DNA of 64,000 nt from positions 98,009-162,008 of the forward strand of contig PBEM01000006.1 in NCBI GenBank assembly GCA_002718415.1, read 5' to 3'. This document shows, piece by piece, positions 6,730 through 40,460 of this stretch; positions within the stretch are counted from its first letter, which is position 1, and every line of letters starts with the position of its first letter. The DNA comes from Chloroflexota bacterium. GTDB lineage: Bacteria > Chloroflexota > Dehalococcoidia > Lucifugimonadales > Lucifugimonadaceae. Both the position numbers and the translations under genes were made by a program. Below the pieces are notes generated by a model, which was given only the letters and a program-made list of their open reading frames with translations, did not search any database and was not told where the DNA came from.

Positions 6730-8158
6730 CAGAGATAGAATTTTATTAATGGATAGATCCATACCTACTCGTAAAGCATTTAATTTTCCATCCTCAGATG
6801 TTCCTAAACAAAAATTACCAAATAAAAATATTCTTAGAAAAAAAATTTCATTACCTGAAATTTCTCAATTAGAAATTATAAGATATTTCACAAATTTAAG
6901 TAGATTAAATTTTTCTATAGATTCAAATTTTTATCCATTAGGTTCCTGTACTATGAAGTATAATCCTAAAATCAATGAAGAAATTGCTTCATTCTCAGGG
7001 TTTCAAAATATTCATCCATTACAAGATTCAAAATCTACACAAGGAGCTATTAAATTAATTAAATTATTACAAGAATTTTTAGGAGAAATTACAGGACTTA
7101 AAGGTGTCTCTTTAGCTCCTCTTGCCGGAGCTCAAGGAGAATATTCAGGATTACTAATAGCAAGAAAATTTCACTCTTCTAATAATAATAACAAAAAAAA
7201 TATAGCTATAATTCCAGATTCAGCTCACGGCACTAACCCCGCATCAGCTGCTATGGCTGGATTTGATGTTATGACTGTTAAATCTGATAATAGTGGAAAT
7301 GTAGATATTGAAGATTTAAAAAAAATAATAAATGAAAAAATAGCAGTCTTTATGATAACTATACCCAGTACTTTAGGTTTATTTGAACCAAATATCTTAA
7401 AAATTACAAGTATGGTACATAAATATGGTGGTTTAGTTTATGCTGATGGTGCGAACCTAAATGCTTTATTAGGTTTAATTAAATTAAATGACCTTGGTGT
7501 AGATATATGTCATTCAAATTTACATAAAACTTTTTCTACTCCACATGGAGGAGGAGGTCCGGGTTCTGGACCTGTTATGGTTACAGAAGATCTGTCTGAT
7601 TTTTTACCTTCACCAATTGCTAAAGTTAATAAAGCATCTTATGAATTATTTACACCAAATAATTCAATAGGAAAAATTAACGGTTTTCATGGATCTTTTG
7701 GAATACTTGTAAGAGCCTATTCATACATAAAATCTCTTGGATCTGAAGGATTAAAACAAGTATCTAAAAATGCAATAATTAATGCAAATTATATTCAATC
7801 TCAACTTAAAAATGAATATTCATTATATTCTGATAGATATTGTATGCACGAAACAGTTTTAAGTGCATCAAAACAAAAAAATAAAGCAATAAAAGGTTTG
7901 GATATAGCTAAAAGACTTTTAGATTATGGAATACATGCACCTACTATGTATTTTCCACAAATTGTCGATGAAGCCTTAATGATTGAACCAACTGAATCTG
8001 AGTCTAAAGAAACTATAGATAATTTTATTGAAACTATGAAAAATATAAACGATGAAATTTCTAATTCACCTGAAATAGTAAAATCAAGTCCCCATAACTT
8101 ACCTGTAAAGCGTTTAGATGAAGCAAAAGCAGCAAGGAATCCTATTTTAAAAAGATGA
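6722..8158 (+). CDS. gcvPB: Glycine dehydrogenase (decarboxylating) subunit 2
   Basis: PLP-bearing half of the split glycine decarboxylase, 478 residues. The PLP lysine is in CHSNLHKTFSTPHGGGGPG, near residue 265. Other family stretches are FYPLGSCTMKYNPK near residue 75 and PDSAHGTNPASAAMAGF near residue 170. The gene ends with UGA, which overlaps the ATG of the RDD gene. This UGA is read as an ordinary stop: continued reading meets a second UGA and then UAA within ten codons and adds nothing conserved. That matters for the UGA-containing genes elsewhere in the window. Confidence 0.95.
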   Translation: MNNRDRILLMDRSIPTRKAFNFPSSDVPKQKLPNKNILRKKISLPEISQLEIIRYFTNLSRLNFSIDSNFYPLGSCTMKYNPKINEEIASFSGFQNIHPLQDSKSTQGAIKLIKLLQEFLGEITGLKGVSLAPLAGAQGEYSGLLIARKFHSSNNNNKKNIAIIPDSAHGTNPASAAMAGFDVMTVKSDNSGNVDIEDLKKIINEKIAVFMITIPSTLGLFEPNILKITSMVHKYGGLVYADGANLNALLGLIKLNDLGVDICHSNLHKTFSTPHGGGGPGSGPVMVTEDLSDFLPSPIAKVNKASYELFTPNNSIGKINGFHGSFGILVRAYSYIKSLGSEGLKQVSKNAIINANYIQSQLKNEYSLYSDRYCMHETVLSASKQKNKAIKGLDIAKRLLDYGIHAPTMYFPQIVDEALMIEPTESESKETIDNFIETMKNINDEISNSPEIVKSSPHNLPVKRLDEAKAARNPILKR

Positions 8159-8691
8159 ATAAAATTATGAAAGAATTAAATGAAGAAGAACAAGTTTTTA
8201 TTTTAGGAGGTAAAGTAGAGAGGTTAGCTGCTTATATTATAGATAGTTTAATAGCCTTCTTATCAATGATACCTTTAGGTTCTCAATTTTTTAATGCAAT
8301 AAACGATTTTTCAGCGGGATCTGTAGACTCAATCAATTCTCTAACCATAGAAAATAGTAATAATTTCACTTTAGGAATATTTCTCATAATTTTACTATTT
8401 ATCATTCAAGGCTATCTTATTACAACCAGAGGTCAATCTATAGGAAAAATAATAATGTCGTTACGTATCGTTAATTCTATAGATGGAACAAATCCAGGTT
8501 TTATTAAAGCATTTTTAGTAAGATTTATTCTAACTCAAATTATTGGTTCTATCCCTTATATAGGTTTCATTTTCGTTTTTACTGATCCATTATTTATATT
8601 TCGAAACGATAGAAGGTGTATTCATGATTTAATGGCAAGCACTATTGTTGTAGAATCAAAAAAACATCCAGTTTTAAATAAGGAAAAATAA
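8155..8691 (+). CDS. RDD-domain membrane protein
   Basis: Small inner-membrane protein (178 residues) of the RDD family, whose members are of unclear function, some being proposed ion antiporters. The RDD elements are VERLAAYIIDSLIAF near the N-terminus, the central TRGQSIGKIIMSLRIV and the C-terminal RNDRRCIHDLMASTIVV. Three hydrophobic segments lie near residues 22-42, 72-90 and 122-145. Its ATG overlaps the gcvPB stop, so it is probably cotranscribed with the gcv genes. It stops directly before the ATG of the peroxiredoxin gene. Confidence 0.8.
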   Translation: MNKIMKELNEEEQVFILGGKVERLAAYIIDSLIAFLSMIPLGSQFFNAINDFSAGSVDSINSLTIENSNNFTLGIFLIILLFIIQGYLITTRGQSIGKIIMSLRIVNSIDGTNPGFIKAFLVRFILTQIIGSIPYIGFIFVFTDPLFIFRNDRRCIHDLMASTIVVESKKHPVLNKEK

Positions 8692-34669: not shown

Positions 34670-36793
34670 TTATTTCTTTTGTAAAATTAAATTTCCATAA
34701 AGATCTACTTCTACCTGCCAATTTGGCGGAATAATACTTGTAGAATCAGGCTCTTCAACTATTGCAGGCCCACTAAATAATAAACCACTTGAAAATTTAG
34801 ATCGATCATAGACAGGTGTATTGATTTTTTTATGTTCCTCACTAAAATAAACTGACCTCTGACCTTTGATCGCAATAGATTTATTTTTATAGTTACTTTT
34901 TAATTCTTGATTTTTTGGAATGGAAATTTTTCTAACTGCAGTTAATCGTAAATTTACTATTTCTACTGGATCATTATCTACTCTAAAGCCATAAGAGCTC
35001 TCATGAGCTAAATGAAACGATTCAAGTAATTCTGTTAACCAATTTTGGTCAATTTTTTTGTCTGGAGCTTGAATATTTAATTCAAAACTCTGTCCCCAAT
35101 ATCTCATTTCTAAAAATTTTTCAAATAATATATTGGGTTTTTGGTCAACATTAACATTATAAGAATGCAAACCCCTTCCTTCGACTTCAAGCGAATCAAA
35201 TCCTTCTTTTACTTCAGATAAATCCATTGTATCTGTGCGAACTATTAAGGTTTTTGATACATCCATCCTAATATCTGTAACTAAAAGGCCTAAAGCAGAA
35301 GCAGTTCCTGGGCCTTTAGGTATAAGTACCTTCTGTATACCCACCTCTTCTGCTAAATTAGCTACATGAGCTGGCCCAGCTCCACCAAAACCCACCATAA
35401 TAAATTCTCGAGGATCATGTCCTTTTTGAACAGAAACCAGTCTAAGTGCATTTACCATTGCATTATTTGCTATTTCAATTATTGCATTAGCTACTTCCAG
35501 AACAGAAAGACCTAATTGTTTAGCACAATTATCAAAGATTGATTTTTCTGCTAAATCAATATCTAAAATTATTTCTTCATTTGCAAAATAATTTGGATCA
35601 AGTTTTCCAAGAATTAAATTTGCATCTGTAATTGTAGGTTGTGTACCTCCTAATCCATAACAAGCGGGACCAGGATCTGCACCAGAGGATTGTGGTCCAA
35701 CACGTAAAGCTCCTCCGGAATCAACCCATGCAATAGAACCACCACCAGCACCTATTTCAACTAAATCTATTACAGGAGTCCTTATAGGATATCCTGAAGA
35801 ACCTCCAAATGCTCCTGCTCCAGTTTGTGCAAAATTTCCAACACTGTAATCTTTTGTTACTGTAGGTTTACCGTCTCTAATTAATGCGGCTTTAGCAGTT
35901 GTTCCTCCCATATCAAAAGAAATAATATTTTTATATCCTAAAGATTTTCCTAAAACTGAAGAAGCTACTACCCCTGCGGCAGGTCCAGATTCTACCATAT
36001 GAACAGGTGATGTAATTGCAGCGTCTGCTGTGTAAACTCCTCCATTCGATTGCATAACTAAAAGTTCAGCATTAATTTTATATTTAAATAATTTTTTACT
36101 AATTGAAGTAATATATTTATTGATTATTGGAGAAATTGATGAATTAATTACTGTAGTTGAAGCTCTTAGGTATTCCCTAAATTCTGGTACAACTTCAGAA
36201 GAAGTAGAAATCATTAACTTTGGTAATCGTATTTGTATAGCTTTCTTTAATTGAATTTCATGCTCCGGATTTCTATATGAATGAAGCAAACAAATAGCTA
36301 CAGCATCTACTTTATTCTTGATAAGTAACTCAATGATTTTATCTATTGATTTTTTATCTATAGGTTTAATTATTTCACCTTTTGAATTCATCCTTTCTAT
36401 AACTTCGAAACATAATTGTCTAGGAATTAAAGGTTTAGGTTTTTTAAATTGTAAATCATAAAGAGATGGCCTTATTTGTCGGGCGATTTCAAGCATATCT
36501 CTGAAGCCTTCTGTAGTAATGAAGGCTGTTTTAGCTGTTTTTCCTTCAATTATTGCATTTGTAGCAACTGTGGTAGCATGAACAACATATTCCATAGATT
36601 CGGGTTGGATTTTTTTAAATTTCAAAATCTTTTCAACTGCACTTATAAATCCAATAGATGGATCTAATGGTGTAGTCAAAACTTTTGAAGTGAAAATTTC
36701 TCCAGTGTTAGAATTAATTAAAGTAGCATCAGTAAATGTTCCACCAATATCTACTCCAATTCTATAGTTGTTAATTTTTTTTGATGATTTCAA
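34670..36793 (-). CDS. hyuA: Hydantoinase/oxoprolinase subunit A
   Basis: 707-residue ATP-dependent hydantoinase/5-oxoprolinase alpha subunit. The N-terminal [17 protein letters not shown] and central [16 protein letters not shown] are the actin-like ATP-binding motifs; [15 protein letters not shown] near residue 68 and [16 protein letters not shown] near residue 465 are family signatures. It acts with HyuB, encoded directly upstream with a 2-base gap, to hydrolyse a cyclic amide such as N-methylhydantoin, hydantoin or 5-oxoproline; the exact substrate is not evident. Confidence 0.9.
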
Positions 36794-36795
36794 AT

Positions 36796-38520
36796 TTAAT
36801 TTAGCCTTAAATTTCTTAATTTGTATGTTTTTTTATAATCTACAAGTTTTTGACTTTTATCTATATGTACACCATAAATATTTCTAGCTCTTTCATATGA
36901 AATTTTTTGTTGTAAATAATCAGATAACACTTTTATAGGATCTCTTTTAAATGGACTACCAAAACCTCCACCTCCTGAAGTTCGATAACTTATTACATCT
37001 CCAGAATATAATTGGATGGTCTTTTTAGAAGATAGAGTGATTTCTTGTTTATTCTTTCTTTTTAAAGCATAGACTGAAACGCTTCCTTTTTTTCCTCCAA
37101 ATAAACCATGAGGTCCATCTTTATCTCTATCAGCTAAAATAGTAAAAGTAGTTTCGTCAGTAAACATATAATCTCTTCGAAGACCCAATCCACCTCTAAA
37201 CTTTCCTGGTCCTTCAGAATTTGGAATTAGTTCATATTTTGTTATTTGAACAGGATAATTACTTTCTGTTTCTTCAATTGGCGCATTTTCAGTATTTTGA
37301 CCGTGAGCTTGTACAGCATCTGGACCATCAGACGTAGATCTAGCCCCATAACCACCTGCCAACGTTTCAAGAAAACAATAATAATCACCAGTGTATTCAT
37401 TTATTCCTCCAAAACCTGAATGACATTGCATAGATTTAGTGCCTGCACAAATTAAATCTGGCATAGATTTAGATAATGCCAAGAATATTAAATCATTAAG
37501 CCTTACATGGGTTTCCCATCCTCCCACTACAGGTGCAGGATGAACACAATTAGTAACAGTGCCTTCAGGAGCAATAACATTTACGTATTTATAAAATCCA
37601 TGATTAACAGGCAAATCTTTATCCATTAAACATCTAAGAGCATAAGCACAAGCAGAAAAAGTTTGGGCAAAAGTAGAATTTACAGGAGCTTGCCTTTGTA
37701 AATCTGATCCTGATGTATTAAAAGTTATTTTGTTTTTATCTATTATAATTTCAACCTTTAAAATAACTTTCTTATCTGTAAATCCATCGTTATCAACAAA
37801 TCCTTCAGCAAAATATTTTCCTATAGGTAGTTTAGATAATTCATTTTTAGTTCTACGTTCTGTGTATTTAATAATTTCCTCTATATATAAATTAAATTCA
37901 TCTAATCCATATTTATGTAATATTTCAAGAATTCTTTTTTCTCCGGTCAAATTAGATCCGATTTGAGCTCTAATATCTCCAGAAGTTTCATGCTTTGATC
38001 TTATTTGCTCTAAAATAAGATCAAAAATATCTTTGTCTATTTTGCCTTTTTTTACTAATTTCACACGTGGAATAATCACACCCTCTTGAAAAATTTCCTT
38101 AAAAGCACCAACAGAAGCAGGTGCCCCCCCTCCTACATCTACATGATGCGCTAAACAAGCAACATATCCAACTAAATATTCTTTAAAATACACAGGTGAG
38201 ATTAAAGAAATATCATTTAAATGTACCCCACCACCATAAGGGTCATTCGAGAGTATCATATCTCCTTCTAAAATATTTTCTACTCCATATTGATTAACAA
38301 TTTCAGGGATATGTTTAATAAAAGACCCTAAATGAACCGGCTGGGTAAATGCCTGAGAAATACATCTCAATTCACTATCAAAAAATGCACAAGAAAAATC
38401 TTGCCGTGTCTTCACATTTGTTGAGTATGCACTTCTGCGTAATGTAATAGCCATTTCTTCAGTTGCCTGAATAAGTGCATTTCTAATAACTTCAAATTTG
38501 ATTGCATTTATTGTTTGCAT
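36796..38520 (-). CDS. hyuB: Hydantoinase/oxoprolinase subunit B
   Basis: 574-residue beta subunit. Family stretches include FEVIRNALIQATEEMAITLRRSAYS at the N-terminus, DMILSNDPYGGGVHLNDISL near residue 85, ACLAHHVDVGGGAPAS near residue 120 and the C-terminal GGLGLRRDYMF and GGGGFGSPFKRDP. It lies between the CocE/NonD hydrolase gene (2-base gap upstream) and hyuA, so the three form one operon. The gene order suggests sequential hydrolysis of an amide or ester compound. Confidence 0.9.
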   Translation of the reverse strand: MQTINAIKFEVIRNALIQATEEMAITLRRSAYSTNVKTRQDFSCAFFDSELRCISQAFTQPVHLGSFIKHIPEIVNQYGVENILEGDMILSNDPYGGGVHLNDISLISPVYFKEYLVGYVACLAHHVDVGGGAPASVGAFKEIFQEGVIIPRVKLVKKGKIDKDIFDLILEQIRSKHETSGDIRAQIGSNLTGEKRILEILHKYGLDEFNLYIEEIIKYTERRTKNELSKLPIGKYFAEGFVDNDGFTDKKVILKVEIIIDKNKITFNTSGSDLQRQAPVNSTFAQTFSACAYALRCLMDKDLPVNHGFYKYVNVIAPEGTVTNCVHPAPVVGGWETHVRLNDLIFLALSKSMPDLICAGTKSMQCHSGFGGINEYTGDYYCFLETLAGGYGARSTSDGPDAVQAHGQNTENAPIEETESNYPVQITKYELIPNSEGPGKFRGGLGLRRDYMFTDETTFTILADRDKDGPHGLFGGKKGSVSVYALKRKNKQEITLSSKKTIQLYSGDVISYRTSGGGGFGSPFKRDPIKVLSDYLQQKISYERARNIYGVHIDKSQKLVDYKKTYKLRNLRLN

Positions 38521-38522
38521 AT

Positions 38523-40460
38523 TTAATTATTTAAAATTGGAATTTTAATACTAGAGGGATAAATATTAGACATAAAAATTGTATTTTTTGTGGATAACAT
38601 TTTAGTATGCCTTCCCAATGGCTCTCCAGTATTTGGATTTATATCAAATCTAGGAAAATTTGAACTAGATATATCAATTCTAAGTTTATGGCCTTCTTTA
38701 AATAAATTAGCTATAGGCCATAAATCTATACTAATTTTATAAATCTCATTTTTTTTCATCATTATTTCTTTGTCATATCCATATCTATACCTCATACGAA
38801 AAATAGTATCTGTTAAATTCAAATGATACCCTTCTGAATAATTTTCAAAAGGAGGATAGACATCAATAAGCTTAAATGTAAAATCTGTATCTAATGCCTC
38901 TGAAGCAACATATAATTCAATTTTGATTACACCAATAATTTCTATTTTTTCTCTTAAGGGTTTAGTTTCAAATGACACAACATCTTTTCTATCCTTAAGT
39001 AATTTATCTGATTTTGAAGACATAAATGATTGATTTGATTCTTTTTGATGAAATCCACCTGCAGGAAGCACTTCACGTATATAATTTTTCATAAAAGACC
39101 ATTGATCTAAGTGCTCAGGAACAAAGTCTAAGCTAGGGCCTCCTTCATTTGGTTTTAATATTTCAAACATACCTACAATAGGTCCGCCAATAGTAGGAAC
39201 AGGATCGTTAGGGTTATATATATAACTTAATTTATCTATAGAGTTTTTATTAATTTCTTCATTAAAAATTCCATCAGAATTAAAATACAATATTTTTTCA
39301 GTAATTTGACCAATAGGCCAATTATTAGCATATCTCCACTTACCACCATGATTTAAATTGCCAGTAGAAGTTAAACCTCCTTTGCCTGCCCCCATTACAA
39401 AAACACTCACCGGTTCAATTTCATCTAATCTAGGTTGTTTTTTTAGCCATCTATCAAAAAAGGCCAATCTGGCAGGGTTATAAAACTCATTTGACCAAAC
39501 ACCTTCTTTTCCGGTATCACAATCTCCTTGTAGCGCCGACGACGCTCTCATTCCACCATGTCACCAGGGACCTAAAATTAAATTTACTGGAGATTTATTT
39601 TTTTTCTTAATTTTTAAATAATAATCTAATGTAGCCCCTATAAAATTATCATAAAATCCACAAGCCAAAGTAATTGGAACATCAGCATGATGGTCAATTC
39701 TAGAATCTTGGTTAGCTGCCTCCTGATCCCACCATTCATCATATATCCCTCGATAGTAATAATCAAAGGCTGTTTTTTCGAGGTAAGGAGTAACTCTCAG
39801 AGCTGTTTCTCCTGGATTTAAAGGAAATTTTTTTATCCATGATCTCATATCTCGCATTGCATCAATTATAATTTTGGCTTTTCCTATATCATCTTTTATT
39901 TCGTGTGAATCTAATGCATGTAAATGTAGAGCTGAAAACATTTGAAAACTCATAGCTCCACCTTCACGCGCTTCATGTAAAAAAATATTTGTGGGGCCTG
40001 CTTCAATCCACATTGCAGATAAATGAGGAGGTTTTTCTAATGCAAGCTGAGTTTGTGTAATTGCACGATGAGATGATCCCATAGTACCTACTTTTCCATT
40101 ACACCAATCTTGTTTAGCTAACCATTCGACTGTATCAAATCCATCTTTTCCTTCCCAAGGATTAATTGTATGGTAATATTCTCCATTTCCTTCAGACCTA
40201 AATCTGCTACGAAGATCTTGAATAATTACTGCATACCCTCGCCTAGTATAGAAAGGCCAAACATCATCCCATTCATTAGATGTTTTATCATATGAAGTTC
40301 TAACTAAAATAGCTGGAACTTTAAAATCAACAGGAGCGCCTTTTCCATTTGAAGGACGATAAATATCCGTAGCAAGTTTAACTCCATCCCTCATCGGAAT
40401 CATAACATCTTGATCTTTATAAATACCGTGTATAGGAAAAGAGTTCTTTAATAGAGACAT
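38523..40460 (-). CDS. CocE/NonD-family hydrolase with in-frame UGA beside the catalytic His (candidate new selenoprotein)
   Basis: ATG at 40460 to 38523, with one in-frame UGA at 39563-39561; readthrough gives 645 residues. The first part (1-299) is an alpha/beta hydrolase: VRTSY57DK (oxyanion Tyr), nucleophile S130 in GTMGSSHRA, acid D271 in GFYDNF. It ends at LILGPW, then UGA, then HGGMR. CocE-type enzymes have GPW-x-H-G with the catalytic His: S117, D259 and H287 in cocaine esterase against S130, D271 and H301 here. Without readthrough the product lacks its catalytic His and the whole jelly-roll domain (about 345 residues, present and intact). A GC-rich hairpin follows at 39532-39546. First gene of the operon with hyuB and hyuA. 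A sequencing error or recent nonsense mutation is the main alternative. Confidence 0.75.
39532..39546 (-). promoter_or_regulatory. Candidate bacterial SECIS hairpin of the CocE/NonD gene
   Basis: Read on the minus strand, AGCGT pairs with GCGCT (5 bp, one G-U) around a CGTCG loop that begins 20 bases after the UGA and has G at its second position. The stretch encodes Ala-Ser-Ser-Ala with GCG TCG TCG GCG, codons that are rare in this AT-rich window, so RNA structure rather than codon preference seems to hold these bases. Confidence 0.6.

Follow-up and report, generated by a model that had tools for sequence, protein, structure and literature searches.

A CocE-type serine hydrolase gene of marine Chloroflexota with an in-frame UGA codon, predicted to encode selenocysteine, next to the catalytic histidine

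Introduction

The gene described here has its closest described counterparts in two systems. By its protein it is related to cocaine esterase CocE (PDB 1JU3, 3I2F), with which it shares the fold, the order and spacing of the catalytic triad and the combination of S15 and PepX_C domains. By its in-frame UGA codon it resembles the genes of bacterial selenoproteins. In a review of May 2026, 119 prokaryotic selenoprotein families and subfamilies are listed, and the bacterial SECIS model is given as a hairpin with a loop of 3–9 nt (G in the first two positions), a stem of 4–16 bp, a spacing of 16–37 nt and an energy of -7.5 kcal/mol or lower (PMC13188914). Selenocysteine (Sec) has been predicted in hydrolases before: from UGA/Cys pairs in ocean metagenomes, a family of trypsin-like serine proteases and one of UshA-like proteins were proposed to contain it (PMC2398784). 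As read from the table of the review, none of the 119 families is a CocE, S15 or other alpha/beta hydrolase (PMC13188914), in line with an earlier note on this DNA whose author knew of no Sec-containing CocE member. Searches of the open-licence literature likewise yielded no prior report of selenium in the CocE class or of selenoproteins or CocE in SAR202.

Results

The window analysed here is a stretch of 64,000 nt from the draft genome of a marine, SAR202-type Chloroflexota bacterium (G000, 74% complete). On its minus strand, positions 40460-38523 hold a frame of 645 codons. Translation of the frame gave a single internal stop, the TGA at 39563-39561, which occupies residue 300 in the context LILGPW-UGA-HGGMR, just as the earlier note had described it. 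This UGA codon (39561..39563, minus strand), predicted to specify selenocysteine, lies directly 5' of the codon of the catalytic His301 (39558..39560, minus strand). In a six-frame scan of the window, this was the only TGA to connect two open frames of great length, one of 302 and one of 346 codons; the next-best TGA-joined pairs had 97+88 and 89+84 codons. TGT and TGC are in normal use in the window. TGA is the ordinary stop of 9 of its 59 genes, which speaks against a plain reassignment of the code.

By profile cut-offs and triad, the product (38523..40460, minus strand; 645 codons including UGA300) is a CocE/NonD family hydrolase of S15 and PepX_C domains. The 645-residue protein matched the Pfam models Peptidase_S15 (2.9e-48, 165 bits, cut-off 23) and PepX_C (6.2e-33, 115 bits, cut-off 22.5) and the NCBIfam model CocE_NonD TIGR00976 (330.4 bits, cut-off 66.3). 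The cut-off of the Xaa-Pro dipeptidyl-peptidase model NF003780 (642) was not reached by the window protein, which scored 17.9 bits. Alignment placed S130, D271 and H301 on S117, D259 and H287 of cocaine esterase, which bears out the parallel in triad spacing drawn in the earlier note. On the minus strand, the nucleophile Ser130 (motif GSSHRA) is encoded at 40071..40073 and Asp271 at 39648..39650. An AlphaFold model of moderate quality (pLDDT 72.6, built with ten sequences) had cocaine esterases as its nearest structures (Z 29.8). The resemblance to cocaine esterase is one of sequence and fold only, and hydrolysis of the benzoyl ester of cocaine by the window protein is putative.

Orthologues were searched in 60 related genomes at first and then in 250 genomes of the order. 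Among the 250 genomes, 17 full-length orthologues with exactly one internal stop were found; this stop was UGA every time and fell into one alignment column, residue 300. The 17 sequences come from as many species-level genomes of two genera (3 in g1, 14 in g12) and range down to 57% identity. Residue 300 is Cys (TGT or TGC) in 10 other full-length sequences of the clade and in an eleventh (G136, TGC), the frame of which is interrupted further on. UGA/Cys pairs at this position, by which the earlier note had proposed to check its reading, are thus the rule: 17 UGA, 11 Cys and no other residue in the clade. A different sense codon in close relatives, named there as a refuting case, was not encountered; Ala, Asn, Ser or Thr occupy column 300 solely in outgroup relatives, which lie outside the clade and are at most 49% identical to the window protein. 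The Ser-Asp-His triad, including Ser130, is kept in every UGA and Cys sequence.

A tree of the 27 full-length clade sequences (17 UGA, 10 Cys) and outgroups was computed without the two trait columns. The UGA/Cys clade received a support of 100. At minimum, the UGA label needs 2 changes on this tree and Cys needs 3, so Sec and Cys have replaced each other more than once. Downstream of the UGA codon, dN/dS was 0.03–0.21 where it could be computed, and pN was 0.02–0.20 against a pS of 0.41–0.84. The frame 3' of the UGA is thus, as judged from these substitution rates, under purifying selection, and with His301 retained this agrees with the observation in the earlier note that the C-terminal part is well preserved.

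Termination at UGA300 would yield a product of 299 residues that lacks His301 and the C-terminal domain. A single stop in a draft genome that is 74% complete could in principle be a nonsense mutation or a wrong base from sequencing or assembly, with a C-terminal half in decay. However, the same UGA is found in 17 genomes, none of these genes has a further internal stop, and selection persists beyond the codon. Sequencing error is excluded, because the UGA recurs and is present in the complete isolate genome of Ca. Lucifugimonas marina JH1073 (CP046147.1). The chance that the gene is a pseudogene or an artefact is regarded as negligible. Alternatively, translation could stop at the UGA and restart at an ATG four codons on (39551), so that two chains assemble; such an ATG is present in genus g1 and in two g12 genomes. 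In 12 of the 17 UGA genomes, however, the first start-like codon follows only after 32–51 codons, beyond conserved sequence. Moreover, the Cys relatives encode one unbroken chain, and the catalytic His would fall outside both chains. A split gene of this kind is considered highly improbable.

A bSECIS-like hairpin, AGCGUC-GUC-GGCGCU, was found at 39532..39546 (minus strand). Its stem starts 14 nt after the UGA, the distance given in the earlier note for a GC-rich hairpin, and its apical loop lies 20 nt after it. The best model-conforming hairpin of each of the 17 UGA sequences has its loop 20–21 nt after the UGA, with the loop sequence GUC, GGUC or CGGGUC. This hairpin with a conserved loop, for which the earlier note had suggested looking, is thus common to all UGA sequences; stem sequences differ between the g1 and g12 groups and the loop GUC is common to both. 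In the Cys relatives, loops varied and lay at 17–33 nt, and a conserved hairpin of the UGA type was absent. All 17 UGA sequences conform to the bacterial SECIS model in loop, spacing and stem length. The energy of the isolated stem reached -7.5 kcal/mol in 6 of the 17 and was -6.0 kcal/mol for the window hairpin. The stems have no exceptional stability: taken by itself, it did not distinguish the UGA sequences from the Cys sequences, nor from shuffles at synonymous sites, which often fold equally well. What tells them apart is the sequence of the loop, its position and synonymous conservation: by synonymous-site identity, codons 304-315 ranked 2nd of 633 windows along the UGA sequences and 379th of 632 along the Cys sequences. 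As a positive control, the SelD genes of UGA-bearing g12 genomes were inspected; their Sec site is a UGA codon, and their hairpins, spaced 32 nt from it, have the loop GGUCU or GGUUU. An Rfam search across the window gave no match at gathering scores.

Just 3' of the Cys300 codon, where a SECIS element would lie, two Cys-form genes (G034 and G026; loci L016 and L017) still fold a hairpin of 7 bp (UGAGAGC...GCUCUCA). Their genomes have no Sec machinery, and the hairpin may be a remnant from an ancestor with Sec.

Genes for Sec synthesis and insertion were searched with profiles. SelB was over the cut-off in every searched UGA genome except G000, and SelA reached 471–518 bits in the tested UGA genomes other than G000 and G001. 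Six UGA genomes were covered by the search for tRNA-Sec; tRNA-Sec(UCA) was found in the g12 genomes G013 and G031, which have all four of SelA, SelB, SelD and tRNA-Sec. For genus g1, SelA was detected in G002, SelB in G001 and G002, and SelD in G000, G001 and G002. tRNA-Sec was not found in these three incomplete genomes, even when the search used a model derived from their relatives. The window's own genome yielded a Sec-type SelD only; SelA, SelB and tRNA-Sec were not found in it. In four g6 genomes, which have the Cys form of the hydrolase, SelA, SelB, SelD and tRNA-Sec were all absent in the searches.

Three kinds of candidate match were rejected. A SelA-like match in G000 is a DgaE-type PLP enzyme and not SelA. 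ARAGORN assigned to tRNA-Ser(GCT) both a 53-bit candidate for tRNA-Sec in G022 and the hits that the relatives-built tRNA-Sec model gave in g6.

SelD carries one TGA in the own genome and in both g1 genus mates. The G000 gene (G000:C6:44848-45783, L158) is located on the same contig, outside the window, and its UGA lies in frame within the canonical UxxK motif; by this position, SelD is predicted to be a second selenoprotein of the window's organism. That tRNA-Sec escaped detection in g1, a genus with UGA genes, SelD and, in G002, both SelA and SelB, may be due to incomplete assemblies or a divergent tRNA. In a further genome, a SelB frame (G035:C57:3808-5550) has an internal TAA, probably an assembly error or decay; the same genome contains tRNA-Sec, and its SelD gene has a UGA in frame.

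Near-cognate readthrough, in which UGA300 is decoded as cysteine or another standard residue and not as Sec, would account for the missing tRNA-Sec in the three g1 genomes, and Cys is indeed the residue of the sister sequences. Against this stand the normal use of TGT/TGC, the role of TGA as a normal stop in the window and the UGA in SelD of the same genomes, which in G000 is at the Sec site. In addition, SelA and SelB exist within g1 (G002), and tRNA-Sec(UCA) is present in g12 (G013, G031). Readthrough is accordingly given little credence and rated very unlikely.

Insertion of Sec at UGA300 of a CocE-type hydrolase, as put forward in the earlier note, is very likely in our judgement; it is supported by UGA/Cys exchange, by conserved hairpins and by SelA and SelB in nearly all searched UGA relatives. 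Sec-tRNA would be brought to UGA300 by SelB, directed by the hairpin directly 3' of the codon, and translation would yield the full CocE-type serine hydrolase of 645 residues.

In genus g1, a short-chain dehydrogenase gene on the opposite strand is followed by the Sec-CocE gene and, on the same strand as the latter, by genes for hydantoinase B- and A-type subunits. In the window, the B-type gene (36796..38520, minus strand; PF02538, 2.8e-166) is the next gene after a gap of 2 bases, and the A-type gene (34670..36793, minus strand; PF01968, 5.2e-101) is the third gene of the probable operon. The B-type neighbour is present in all three g1 genomes, and the three genes probably form an operon in this genus. 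The nearest NCBIfam models of both subunits are caprolactamase subunits, far under cut-off (caprolactamase beta for the B type, 283 bits, cut-off 1000). This neighbourhood hints at a part in the metabolism of amides or lactams in g1. The hydantoinase and dehydrogenase neighbours were absent from the g12, g11 and g6 relatives examined; since the neighbourhood is conserved only within g1, it gives no family-wide hint of a substrate. One g1 genome (G002, L156) has two consecutive copies of the B-type gene. A second, ordinary CocE/NonD paralogue precedes the Sec gene on the same strand in relatives of the g12 type, Ca. Lucifugimonas among them (for example G013, L157: paralogue at 6878-8608, Sec gene from 9985 onward).

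A cysteine at residue 267 (codon 39660..39662, minus strand), four residues before the catalytic Asp271, is a candidate resolving partner of Sec300. It occurs together with Sec or Cys at residue 300 in 25 of the 27 clade sequences (17/17 UGA, 8/10 Cys) and in 0/20 outgroup sequences. No other Cys column is both invariant in the UGA sequences and missing from the outgroups. The two remaining Cys300 sequences (G030 and G127) have Gly267 and form the first branches of the clade; Cys267 arises on the next branch. It was gained once on the tree, and its association with Sec counts as one event. In the AlphaFold model, Cys267 is at the end of strand 263-268, which leads to Asp271, and Sec300 follows strand 292-297, which leads to His301. 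The strands that lead to Asp and His are neighbours in the alpha/beta-hydrolase fold.

Discussion

Since the Ser130-Asp271-His301 triad is kept in UGA and Cys sequences, the enzyme probably works by conventional triad hydrolysis; the bonds cleaved would be esters or amides. Sec300 and Cys267 would pair reversibly in a selenenylsulfide by which the loops of Asp and His are held in place or released, and the Se-S bond would switch the CocE-type triad on or off. A selenium-dependent, redox-gated serine hydrolase of this kind is suggested tentatively, from covariation and the model. Among the roles that the earlier note had offered for Sec, a redox switch is the one favoured by the covarying Cys267; an alternative nucleophile is disfavoured, because Ser130 is retained and Sec does not replace it.

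Sec may instead be inserted for another purpose, as a metal ligand, as an acyl acceptor with Ser130, for tuning of His301 or as a guard against irreversible over-oxidation. Residue 300 adjoins the catalytic His301, two Cys300 sequences do without Cys267, and metal or other ligand contacts are predicted for about one fifth of selenoprotein families (PMC13188914). The unique distribution of Cys267 and the retained nucleophile speak against such roles, which taken together come close to an even prospect. As a whole, a selenoprotein of the CocE-type hydrolase class, with a redox role assigned conditionally, is quite likely the best explanation of the locus as read from its sequence.

If this explanation is true, Sec is used outside classical oxidoreductase chemistry, and an ordinary hydrolase is possibly under selenium or redox control. 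A serine hydrolase with Sec adjoining its catalytic His raises the question of what use selenium is to a hydrolytic triad, in a residue that is kept as Sec or swapped for Cys throughout a species-rich marine lineage. Sec-CocE genes risk being annotated as pseudogenes or as two fragments. Ca. Lucifugimonas marina, which belongs to the cultivated SAR202 bacteria, is a cultured relative in which the question is testable (PMC10444878).

Compared with cocaine esterase, the AlphaFold model superimposes on 3I2F with a Z of 29.8 and an rmsd of 4.0 over 539 residues at 31% identity. CocE contains no selenium and, as read from the alignment, has Ser286 at the equivalent of Sec300 and Ala255 at that of Cys267. 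The alpha-amino acid ester hydrolases and the archaeal S15/CocE aminopeptidase 4PF1 share the fold and domain order (Z 25.7-27.2); they are 24-25% identical to the window protein and lack Sec. The trypsin-like and UshA-like families provide the precedent for Sec in hydrolases, in folds unrelated to CocE; in the trypsin-like family Sec corresponds to a conserved domain Cys, and adjacency to the triad is not reported (PMC2398784). Sec next to an S15-type triad has, as far as we found, no precedent; Sec in hydrolase families has this one. The known bacterial selenoproteins (SelD, FdhA, Prx and others) show the same UGA/Cys exchange, the same Sec machinery in relatives and likewise a hairpin just past the UGA that has a G within the first two positions of its loop, and, unlike the CocE-type hydrolase, they are mostly redox or thioredoxin-fold proteins (PMC13188914). 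By this comparison, the predicted insertion system appears ordinary and its host protein unexpected.
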